A stretch of 64,000 nt of DNA. Source: Liolophura sinensis (lineage: Eukaryota > Mollusca > Polyplacophora > Chitonida > Chitonidae). The notes under the pieces were generated by a model. The model was not told the DNA's origin. It saw only the letters and a list, made by a program, of their open reading frames with translations, and ran no database searches. The DNA lies in NCBI RefSeq assembly GCF_032854445.1, contig NC_088299.1, positions 216,001-280,000 on the forward strand, given 5' to 3'. The translations under genes and the position numbers were made by a program. Shown here piece after piece: positions 56,921 through 61,442 of the stretch (its first letter is position 1; the number at the start of each line of letters is the position of its first letter).

Positions 56921-59900
56921 TTACCCCTTCCACCAGTAGTTGAACTGACAACAGCAGTTAGTACACAGAGTTATACGCTTGATGACGAATGGGATTGGTT
57001 TAAGCCCTGGACAGTAAAGCACGACGATCTGTGAGCGACGTCCGTAAGCGTTACACCGGCCCGGACAACCACATCCTAGGCGGCAGTACGAGTTGGGGCG
57101 GCTGCAGAGAGACAATAGAAGTCAGCAAACAAGTAAAAAAAATGCAATTTAGCTCATATTTTGTTCCATTTACCTAGCTTTATGTTATATAAATGTTCGA
57201 TTATAGGGCTTGAAGCCACGAAGTTGTCAGGTATTTGGCAAAGGAAGGTGACATACTTCGGTTGCTTTCACCCTAAAAAAATTTCGTCATATAAGTGAAA
57301 CATAACGTGAAAACGACGTTATACACAGAGTAAAAAAATATATATCTAAATAAATCAATAAATGAAAATGATAGCTTGTCAAAATAATATTGGGTGTAAG
57401 GGTGTTTTGTAAGGAGTTAACTACACATAGTCCAAACTGAAACTATCCCTCTTGTCGTAAAGTCTGCGAGAGAGGAAACTGTTTTGGTCTTTGTACAAAT
57501 ATTGGTCCAGGTCAGATGTACCATCTGGAGAATCTGAGGATTTCCTTTAAATCCAGCAAAGGTGGGCATATATCTTTCACGGCCTTTGTTTTATATGAAC
57601 ACTGAAAAACACCTCTCCCGTCATTTTGTCTTTTTTTTTTTTTTTTACCGTCAACCTTAGTGAAGATGTTTATGGTTGCTTTCTCACAGGCTGTGCAAGG
57701 CATACACCAGTGCCGAGTTACAGCACTAAAGGTTCAAAATGTCGTTTATGGAAAGTTAACAGGGGTCTAAGGCGTACTACGTCTTGTTGCGCACTGATCT
57801 TACCTGCAGGCTACGTTCGTCACGCCTCCTCGCGGCCAGATGATGCGACAGTTATCACAGCTGTACAGCTGTTGTTTCACAGCCTTGCAATTTGAGCAAG
57901 GGCATCTGAAACAATGAAACAAAAACTAAAGTACATTTGACAAGATATGGTGAAACATTCCTTACACAAAAGCATGAACATATATGTCATATTTCGAACT
58001 TCCTCTACGGTCGTACGTGGGATGGCCTGACAGCAACATGTTAATGGCCGTGGGTTTAACCTGGGCTGTACCCGGTTTCCTCCCTCCATCATGCTGGCTA
58101 CCATCCTAGAAATCAAATATTCTTGACTGTTAATCAAATACCCTCGGACAGGGAATTTTCCAGATTTCTGTGATCCCACTGTTCTCTGGGCCCGGTAGGG
58201 AGCATAAGCTTTAGACAACAACTGTACGCTTTCGTGTATAGTCTTATATAAAATTCATTGCACACCAATTAGCTTCTGTCAATATGACAAAAATATCGCA
58301 AGTGGTAAAATGCGCCAGTGGCGTGCCAAAGCTCACTGGTTTACCCATCCTTCAATCCACCATGGTATACGTGATACCTTTTTAAGTGAAGGTCGTTAAA
58401 CAGCTACCAAGTTAAAGGATTTTCCAAGGAATGTTTTCCCACTTTTACTCACTTATAGGAGACTGGCAGAATACTTGACTTTTCGTCGGCCTTGTTCTCA
58501 GCATCTAACTCGGCGATTTTGGCCTGGATATCTGGGTTTTGTCTCAAGGCCGCCTCAACATCCTCGCTGGAAAAAACATTTTTGAGAATGAAATATAAGA
58601 CAACAAAAAGCTTTGTAGATCAGAATTTATTGATAATTGTTTTACAAAACGAATGACAAGTGTTGTTCACTATTCCATAGATTTAATGTTGTTTACCCAG
58701 ATGGGACGAGTATACAAAATATCTCCTTCATGCATTGCCGTAGCGGAGGAAATAGTGCATATGTTTGTGTACACCATTTACATTGTTTTCAAGTAAATGT
58801 TTGTCCAATAGGATGACTAAAGTAGCATTTTGACCAGTGACATCTAATAAATCGTAATTAGCACCACTGATGTTTTTTACTTAATTCTGCTTGAGCCTTG
58901 ACGATAAATGATGTATCGGTTTCTACTGTATAAGCATCTACATGAATAGTTATAATGACACCCTTACTGAGGTAGTCCTAACTTGATGCGAGGTCGGGTT
59001 TCAACGGTTACTTCGCTGCTCTGGATTTACTGCCTTAGTATTTTGAAGGGAAGTTGTTAATGGAAGTGGACTTACGTGGTGGCTCTGGCAGTACGGATAG
59101 CGCTACATGACGGCGCGCAAGGTTTGACTGGGATAAAGGGTTGGGCCCAGGGCAGTTCCGCCTGCAGCTGGGCAGAGACGGACACCAACAGGTAAAGAAC
59201 CACGGCAGACAACTACTGACAGAAAACAATACACCAGCTAGTAAGATTTCATGGAAATGGAATTAATAAGTTAATGATTTTTTTGTTTATACAGCTATTG
59301 TGACCACATAATTACATAATTTGAATGCCTTGATGTAATTATACGGGGGAAATTGGAGTTCGCAATTTGCAACAAGGTATACGTCACCTAAGTGAAAACA
59401 AGACCGGATTCGTTTATTAGGACGCCATAGTACGTCAGATAACATGTTCAGAATCTTTAAATCAAATTCTACATTTACATATCGCATCATTACCGCTGTA
59501 TCAGTTAAAACCTAATTTGCACATTCAGTAATTTAATTTAACCCTTTATTTAGTTAATGAGGATAACCAACAGTCAATTGGCCACTAGGGGATCTCCTCT
59601 GACATACAACATAGTGAATCGCATATCTTTACAAGTAAGTACAATGTAATACAATTATAAGGTATATATGGATAAACATCGGTATATTATACAAGGAAAA
59701 AACATTCATATGTATGCCTAAACCCATATATATATATATATATATATATATATATATATATATATATATATATATATATATATATATATATATATATATA
59801 TATATATATATATATATATTCAAGTATCCAAATATAGTACATACAAAACATTAAATACGAGTTCGACAGGCGGAAAATAGGTGGAAATTATGTGGAACTG

Positions 59901-61442
59901 TAGGTGGAAAGAGAGCTAATTTTTTGGCAAAAAAAAAAACGCGTCGTTGCATCAGTGAAACGATGCAAACATGTGAAGATAGATACAATATCATTTGTAC
60001 TTAATTCATCTGATCCATTCATTAAAATTTCACACGTGCTCTTTAAGAACTAATCCTAAAACATAAAATAGTTTGTTACCCAGGGCAGATTATCCCTGCC
60101 AGTAAGACGGACATGTGTTTTCTTTGAGTGGCGAATTCGGGGCATTTTCACAAGTAAAGCCACATAAAGAACAACTTTTACCATTTACGGTATTTTAGGT
60201 ATATAAATCACCGTTTAGGGTACATAGGCTCATTGTCATTCTGCACTGAATAATAGAGGGATAATTACAAAAAGAATTAAAACCGTTATCCAGCAGCGTT
60301 GCCGGGGTACATGTTATTAGTCTTTTACCACATCTGGTAGCCTGGTGTGTATAAAGTTCGTGATTGGCTTCTACAAAGTTGGTGATAATGTGAAAAAAGC
60401 GTAAAAAGAATGGCAGGAAATATCTGGATATGAACCACAGGCATCTAGATACAATGTCCATGGGGACTTGCAGTAAATATAAAACATTGCTCTCTGATGG
60501 CAGTGCTGGGCTACATATATGGCCATAAATGATAGGTATTCCAGGGATCGGCTAAGATTGTTGCAAAATTGATCCCCGTTCTCTCGGTAAACTGCTGTAA
60601 CAAGTTTTATGCAGTCTTGCATAAAGCTGACGTGTTGAATTTTAGAGAAAAATTGAACAGGTTCATTCTTTGAAATTCATAATACTGAGGTCAAGGCATT
60701 CCTACCCAACATTCTCTTTAAGAATCGCATGCCCTGTAAACAGAATGTTGGGTGGGATGAAATTTTCGCGGCTCTTCACCCTATTGTTGTGAAGTTGTAA
60801 AGATGCGTGCGTTCACACGACGTGGCCAAGTCCGTTTTAAGTCAGTTCGGGGATTTGCCCGTTCACACAGTCACATTTAAGCCGGATTAGTAATTACGAC
60901 GCCATCCTGACCTCTACGTATCAGGGGCATTTAATCCAGTTACCGTTCACACGACACAGATAAACCCGCTCAAGCGCTCAAACTGGCTTCCATTCACAGC
61001 TCATCATAATGACGTCCCAATAAAAACATTATGACGTTACAATAAAAATCTGATACATTGTAATATCGTAGACGTTACCCTACAACCCATTTTTGACATA
61101 ACAATGACGCAAGGCCCTGCTTAGTTTCAGCTCACTCACATGAGCCGTTAATCTGTCGGCCAAATCACGCGATCAAATGTTTCCAAAAGATACAAAGCGC
61201 AACTTTAAATTTTTCCCTAAAACTTACTGAAGTTTAAGGAATGTACCATTTCTCGTTTTCTCACAAAAGTATCACAAAATTGGTGAGAGAAATAATCCTA
61301 AAGATTTGGGATTCAAGCCTATTGACCAAAATATAGTATAAGAAACATGCATGTATCGAAAAGCCTGAAAATAATTTTTTTAAGATTTATAAATTGTTCA
61401 AGTCATTGAAACATAGTCCAAACTTACCGTAAAGTAATGCAT
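56921..61442 (-). CDS. Secreted cysteine-rich protein, 182 residues, five exons
   Basis: I do not recognise a family. Assembled minus-strand exons: 61428-61442, 59076-59212, 58453-58566, 57804-57905, 56921-57101. All four introns have GT and AG borders and phases 0, 2, 2, 2 that keep one open frame of 182 codons plus TAA. Residues 1-19 form a signal peptide (MHYFT then a hydrophobic stretch ending VSVSA), so the product should enter the secretory pathway. Residues 24-51 hold two Cys (C37, C41). Residues 52-89 are acidic and probably helical. Residues 90-182 hold 15 Cys: CPCSNC, SCDNC, C122, C129, GCGC, C139, C153, C169 and a CCC cluster at 172-174 before the aromatic end FNYWWKG. Seventeen Cys suggest a disulfide-rich extracellular or matrix protein; the odd count leaves a free Cys or a dimer bond. 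A TATA box lies upstream. The exact function is unknown. Confidence 0.82.
57991..58141 (+). mobile_element. SINE family A, diverged, tail lost
   Basis: Plus-oriented in intron 3 of the cysteine-rich gene: cttcctctacggtcgtacgt, ggccgtgggtttaacctggg, ccggtttcctccctcc, ccattaat-like end. Confidence 0.65.
59726..59819. repeat. (AT)n microsatellite, about 47 units
   Basis: Uninterrupted AT dinucleotide tract in intron 1 of the cysteine-rich gene. Its length is probably unstable and poorly resolved. Confidence 0.95.
60701..60756. repeat. Small foldback sharing sequence with the right-edge element
   Basis: The arms 60701-60715 and 60742-60756 (AGAATGTTGGGTGGG) pair with one mismatch. 60727-60758 also matches 63925-63956 at nearly every base, so both are pieces of one repeat family. 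Confidence 0.65.
60960..61145 (+). repeat. Interspersed repeat D, copy 3
   Basis: Contains attatgacgttacaataaaa, ctgatacattgtaatatcgtagac, gttaccctac and tttttgacataacaatgacg in the order seen at 28650 and 30560. The preceding 60820-60960 has repeated gttcacac..gac words. Confidence 0.6.

Follow-up and report, generated by a model that had tools for sequence, protein, structure and literature searches.

The DAN family comprises seven proteins that share a conserved cystine-knot domain, and some of these, several in number, directly block BMPs (PMC7473711). For cnidarians, PMC4079206 lists proteins of the gremlin, sclerostin-domain, NBL1 and Norrie types, and a synteny figure legend of the same paper includes a limpet gremlin locus. 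Here, we compare with these systems a five-exon gene on the minus strand of a 64-kb stretch of the Liolophura sinensis genome (G000:C5:216001-280000, hereafter the window; genome of 609,464,459 bases in 632 contigs). Its predicted product may be a divergent DAN-like cystine-knot protein acting as an extracellular antagonist or ligand, a tentative reading that we hold at slightly less than even confidence and consider about as likely as that of an unrelated orphan cysteine-rich secreted protein.

Running from window position 61442 to 56921, the five exons join into a 549-nucleotide (nt) frame including the stop codon, which would encode 182 residues with 17 cysteines (Table 1). All four introns predicted from the DNA are of the GT-AG type with consensus sites; the acceptor of exon 2 is placed at the TAG of CAGTAG because a splice at CAG would add an in-frame stop. 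Together with the start Met, the TATA box and the polyadenylation signals, this architecture bears out the preliminary description, in which no strand was named: the gene looks real, and its product would be a secreted protein dense in cysteines.

Base composition and codon usage can both be brought to bear on whether the chain of exons is a gene at all. GC content is 54% over exons 2-5 (60, 49, 54 and 53%, respectively), 35-41% in the four introns and 33% in the 15-nt exon 1, and just 6 of 20 000 random placements of four same-length segments in the window were equally GC-rich. Scored with the codon frequencies of a KDM8 frame in the same window, the predicted frame exceeds the other two forward frames in four of five exons (2-5, not the 15-nt exon 1). 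Its score over the whole coding sequence is slightly below zero (-5.8), against -42.0 and -60.4 for the other forward frames and -13.1 for the best of the reverse frames. This negative value and the proximity of the reverse frame are what favours a locus that is not an expressed gene, be it a decayed gene or a chance exon chain—a possibility that we consider very remote in view of the four introns with consensus splice sites around an open frame, the GC contrast, the signal peptide and the flanking TATA box and polyadenylation signals, as well as a match to GREM2 and NBL1 that falls within exon 5 and in the frame of the model (see below). Under strict splice rules, both strands of the 64 kb contain 86 open exon-and-frame candidates; the eight Cys-richest listed per strand include, for the minus strand, exon 4 in the frame of the model and the interval of exon 2 in a different frame, with exon 3 not among them. 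Overall, the sequence features leave us in little doubt that the gene is real.

The product is predicted to be secreted. A by-eye reading of the joined exons confirms the signal peptide split over exons 1 and 2 that had been proposed earlier, followed by a stretch that carries C37 and C41 and then by the acidic segment (nine Asp/Glu vs four Lys/Arg in 33 residues) and the 93-residue Cys-dense domain (residues 90-182, 15 cysteines), the last two also part of the first description. No feature specifically indicates a matrix protein or effector, two roles that had been suggested, and the 182-residue product contains no N-x-S/T site. Weak Pfam matches of the acidic linker (OEP, expectation value (E) 0.068; Cnn_1N, 0.14; Syntaxin, 0.16) were rejected as helix composition.

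It is the C-terminal half of the Cys-dense domain that resembles the DAN family, aligning with Gremlin-2 and NBL1 as IVVLYCPG...PFVIKRI...C-C-C vs IVELECPG...PFRIKKI...C-R-C. Searched against the PDB with phmmer, a 96-residue segment spanning the domain returned six distinct sequences at E<=10, of which four are DAN proteins (Gremlin-2, 0.18 and 0.18; NBL1, 0.34 and 0.49). The remaining two are L36 ribosomal proteins (0.21 and 0.40); we reject that identity for a product predicted to be secreted and put the likeness down to CxxC. With the whole protein as query, the Gremlin-2 alignment covers the finger 2/C5-x-C6 part and CPGRCNAY (vs CYGQCNSF), in the same order in both proteins, the CPGRCNAY piece on its own contributing only -0.6 bits (1.2 in the 96-residue search).

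The same similarity stands out within the window. Six-frame tblastn ranks exon 5 first for GREM2 (E 2.4e-4; next 0.40) and NBL1 (1e-3; next 0.81), not for GREM1, whose best match (0.15) lies elsewhere, and a hidden Markov model (HMM) of all three queries places the exon-5 frame first of 2234 window frames (3.6e-4; next 0.84). The HMM score of 20.7 bits was equalled by none of 5000 Cys-preserving shuffles (best 19.9) and none of 4985 full shuffles. In pairwise local alignment, Cys-preserving shuffles scored as well in 0/3000 cases for GREM2, 0/3000 for NBL1 and 12/3000 for GREM1; in global alignment of residues 106-176, as performed for seven targets only (GREM2, NBL1 and five loci of the same genome: L006, L008, L014, L020 and L021), they did so in 0/1000 for GREM2 and 2/1000 for NBL1. 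A single-sequence hhalign comparison with the three queries gave 90% in local mode, over 31 columns confined to finger 2, and 31% in global mode. At the sequence level, the similarity to GREM2 and NBL1 thus exceeds what shuffles explain, but finds no confirmation in the wider family.

How could such a domain be folded? If it is a diverged cystine knot with an 8-residue ring of the DAN/gremlin type, then C108 would serve as knot cysteine C1, C122 and C153 as the finger pair (I and III), C135-PGR-C139 as C2 and C3, and C172-C-C174 as C5-x-C6, while C4 would be lost or its part taken by C153 or by C139 itself (the ring then being C129-RLG-C133). The ring pattern C2-x-G-x-C3 plus C5-x-C6, whose glycine is stated in PMC3224965, is present on this assignment. 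All 14 knot domains examined carry the tail C4-x13-C(III)-x(15-21)-C5-x-C6, and eight have the spacing C1-x13-I, two of the 14 being shown without C1. The VWF knot pairs 2724-2774, 2739-2788, 2750-2804 and 2754-2806, as given in PMC8626975, imply the same 13-residue gap between C4 and III. Both DAN spacings recur in the candidate, as C108-x13-C122 and C139-x13-C153, the latter continuing with x18-C172-C-C174. Among 20 000 full shuffles, CxGxC ahead of the tail arose 31 times and the complete series C1, I, CxGxC, tail 7 times, for patterns that were written after the sequence had been seen.

Set beside individual relatives, the candidate shows how far this likeness extends. With Gremlin-2 (PRDC; DAN family; PDB 4JPH, 5HK5), it shares the finger 2 motif IVxLxCPGLxP-PFxIKxI, C5-x-C6, CxGxCN(S/A)(F/Y) and both spacings, but it lacks the C3-C4 heel (about 20 residues), carries the extra cysteines C129, C133, C169 and C173 plus an upstream cluster, and is not recognised by PF03045. 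The same differences separate it from NBL1/DAN (PDB 4X1J, 4YU8), with which it has in common a gap-free EIVTLECPG...VPxVxK...C-S-CQ and 18 residues from III to C5, whereas global alignment leaves CPGRC unpaired with CLGQC of NBL1. The gremlin-like L006 of the same genome (G000:C6:29840150-29840473) shares CPG...KRI...C-x-C, its score being equalled by 15/1000 Cys-preserving shuffles in global and 13.8% of 1000 in local alignment; L006, however, is recognised by PF03045 at 113.5 bits as an ordinary gremlin, has an intact heel and lies on another contig, and the window gene is not its copy. From C3 to the first heel cysteine, GREM1, GREM2, NBL1 and L006 have 18-20 residues. The corresponding position lies inside exon 5 of the candidate, so no missed exon explains the absent heel.

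A number of results weigh against DAN kinship. C139 aligns with both C3 and C4, such that six separate knot cysteines are not found and the heel is missing, and the tail spacing alone turns up in 3149 of the 20 000 full shuffles. Neither the whole protein nor the Cys-dense domain matches any Pfam family at E<=10. With the whole protein as the PDB query, ribosomal L36 (0.58) ranks ahead of Gremlin-2 (0.83 and 0.84). Three Cys-preserving shuffles served as PDB controls: two had no match, and the third matched unrelated proteins, at E 0.19 for the best of them; after these controls, the PDB E-value was rejected as proof of a DAN relation. AlphaFold was uninformative for exon 5 alone, with a mean predicted local distance difference test score of 41.1.

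The profiles of the genome itself add to this list. At E<=10, PF03045 gives 21 matches in the genome (24 first-look candidates) and PF00007 gives 17, and the five-exon locus is among neither. For 18 frames picked from these loci, with near-identical copies and repeat-like loci excluded, pairwise local scores were 0.010 for L013, 0.041 for L014 and above 0.05 for the other 16. Adding L006 to GREM1, GREM2 and NBL1 lowers the HMM score to 14.6 bits, a value reached by 4/5000 Cys-preserving and 2/5000 full shuffles. Profiles were also built from unselected sets comprising every locus over the cut-off (nine for PF03045 and eight for PF00007, with L034 excluded for stops and L025 unused): Cys-preserving shuffles did as well in 686/4995 cases for the former, 313/5000 for the latter and 770/5000 for all 17. 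Four unselected frames (L009-L011 and L013) are half domains, which weakens this null result but does not remove it; the set of 17 also holds the same locus up to twice. Because the unselected profiles give no support, our confidence in the DAN-like reading was lowered from slightly above to slightly below even.

Selected profiles, trimmed to whole domains, performed better and count in favour of the reading, but they were picked after the pairwise scores were known, which counts against it. The profile L006+L008+L014+L016 gave 13.6 bits, reached by 9/5000 Cys-preserving and 13/5000 full shuffles; for ten domains (L006, L007, L008, L012, L014, L016, L021, L028, L031 and L034) the counts were 19/5000 and 17/5000, and for these ten plus GREM1, GREM2 and NBL1 they were 3/5000 and 1/5000. 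In global alignment, Cys-preserving shuffles as good as the real sequence numbered 15 per 1000 for L006, 30 for L008 and 8 for L014. As regards genomic distribution, the over-cut-off knot matches are concentrated on one 32.8-Mb contig, G000:C11 (7/10 for PF03045, 6/9 for PF00007), whose knot loci are L008-L014, L026-L029, L031 and L032, with three near-identical copies at 28.02-28.28 Mb.

Much of this evidence is what one would expect of an orphan secreted Cys-rich protein (structural, in mucus or shell matrix, or defensive) without any knot growth-factor ancestry, the gremlin resemblance then being chance helped by many cysteines: no curated family matches, neither PF03045 nor PF00007 lists the locus, the unselected profiles are silent, a shuffled query can score in the PDB about as the real one does, and the upstream cluster C90, C92, C95 and C105 is unseen in the 14 knot domains. 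Against such an origin stand the likeness to GREM2 and to NBL1, which none of 3000 Cys-preserving shuffles equalled in either case, and its first place in the window, as well as PDB matches that agree in family and register, unlike the three matches of the one matching shuffle. We give the orphan explanation the same standing as the DAN-like one. The earlier verdict that the domain cannot be placed in any family stands in that neither Pfam nor NCBIfam (only weak match a DNA polymerase model, E 0.077) places it; it loses force, without being reversed, in that a gremlin/NBL1 knot resemblance is detectable, though the unselected profiles do not reproduce it.

In a further alternative, the domain would be a CTCK domain with a short heel, like those of Slit, CCN and mucin type; C129-RLG-C133 would form the ring, C139 would be C4, and the whole would serve as a dimerisation or matrix-binding module. 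Two such domains in the genome, L020 and L021, which we take to be Slit/CCN-like, separate C3 from C4 by only five and four residues, respectively, and share the C4-x13-III spacing, and CRLGCG resembles CLGSCG of L021. Yet the candidate does not surpass its Cys-preserving shuffles in global alignment with L020 or L021 (455/1000 and 102/1000 score as well), PF00007 does not list the locus, and the spacing from I to C2 would be 6, vs 9-12 in the 14 domains, all of which makes this alternative improbable.

Searches for a second copy with both protein halves (E<=10) found the gene's own exons and four weak matches (L004, 0.23; L005, 2.1; L045, 2.9; L046, 6.3). L004 has an in-frame TGA and keeps 3/5 aligned cysteines, L005 keeps 3/6, and both were treated as chance, without proof; the 609-Mb genome thus appears to hold no convincing second copy. 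Related loci were likewise absent from viral-contig and genome-contig collections, which hold no other whole animal genomes, and literature searches turned up no title on such a protein among those listed, which does not in itself show absence from print.

Taking the evidence as a whole, we do not file the gene with gremlin, NBL1, cerberus and sclerostin in the DAN family, as a PF03045 match and an intact heel with six separate knot cysteines are missing and sequence similarity beyond composition is seen with some profiles and not with others; we class it as a candidate for a DAN-like cystine knot instead. Were the DAN-like reading correct, the product would be an extracellular two-finger protein locked by disulfides, with a growth factor of the BMP/TGF-beta type or a receptor as its binding partner, and its most likely role, judged purely by family resemblance, would be that of an antagonist or ligand in BMP/TGF-beta-type signalling; fold, disulfides and binding partner are all inferred. 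Rather unlikely, in our estimate, is the stronger proposal of a new DAN-type branch that has lost its heel, rewired its knot with extra cysteines (the CCC tail and upstream cluster) and is missed by current profiles.

Table 1. Features of the five-exon locus and of the remainder of the window (window coordinates).
Feature	Position	Strand	Details or basis
TATA box TATAAAAG	61526..61533	-	Starts at 61533, 91 nt upstream of ATG; sequence
Exon 1, coding part (15 nt): start Met and residues 1-5	61428..61442	-	Donor GTAAGT
Exon 2 (137 nt): remaining signal peptide and segment with C37, C41	59076..59212	-	Acceptor TCAGTAG, donor GTAAGT
Exon 3 (114 nt): acidic linker	58453..58566	-	Acceptor CCAG, donor GTGAGT; joined-exon translation
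Exon 4 (102 nt): first Cys cluster C90, C92, C95, C105, C108, C122	57804..57905	-	Acceptor TCAG, donor GTAAGA; ends within codon 123
Exon 5 (181 nt with stop): C129 to C174, DAN-like C-terminal half and aromatic C-terminus	56921..57101	-	Acceptor GCAG
AATAAA	56909..56914	-	Begins 7 nt past the stop codon
AATAAA, likelier polyadenylation signal of the two	56771..56776	-	Sequence
Dispersed-repeat fragment (family D1) in intron 3, outside the product	58005..58162	n/a	Repeat comparison
Repeat copies 1-5	11907-12064, 24005-24162, 25094-25251, 26580-26737, 33434-33591		Repeat comparison
Repeat copies 6-10	39900-40057, 42572-42729, 45603-45760, 45815-45972, 58005-58162 (intron 3)		Repeat comparison
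Perfect tandem pair of a 295-nt unit	37491-38080		Each unit contains a 41-nt repeat
Long open frame, KDM8/JMJD5-type JmjC hydroxylase	17794-19284	-	Cupin_8 E 2.2e-42; ARM_KDM8_N E 8.2e-7
Protein-kinase exon	29752-29916	+	Pfam Pkinase E 1e-5
Open frame	50504-50812	+	No Pfam match

Elsewhere in the window, the dispersed repeat occurs as ten direct copies of a 158-nt stretch with at least 61% identity, besides inverted pairs of up to 262 nt at 92%; it is probably a short interspersed element, as its head GGTTAGCGCGCTAGCGCAGC looks tRNA-derived. We take the kinase exon to be NEK11-like, and the downstream plus-strand frame may belong to the same gene as a later exon.

If the DAN-like reading is false, the locus would add one more orphan secreted protein to those already known. 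If it is true, the gene would encode an extracellular signalling regulator that is invisible to the Pfam profiles used here, built on a cystine knot that tolerates the loss of its heel, and folds of growth-factor antagonists might then also lie concealed in other ‘orphan’ secreted proteins rich in cysteine.

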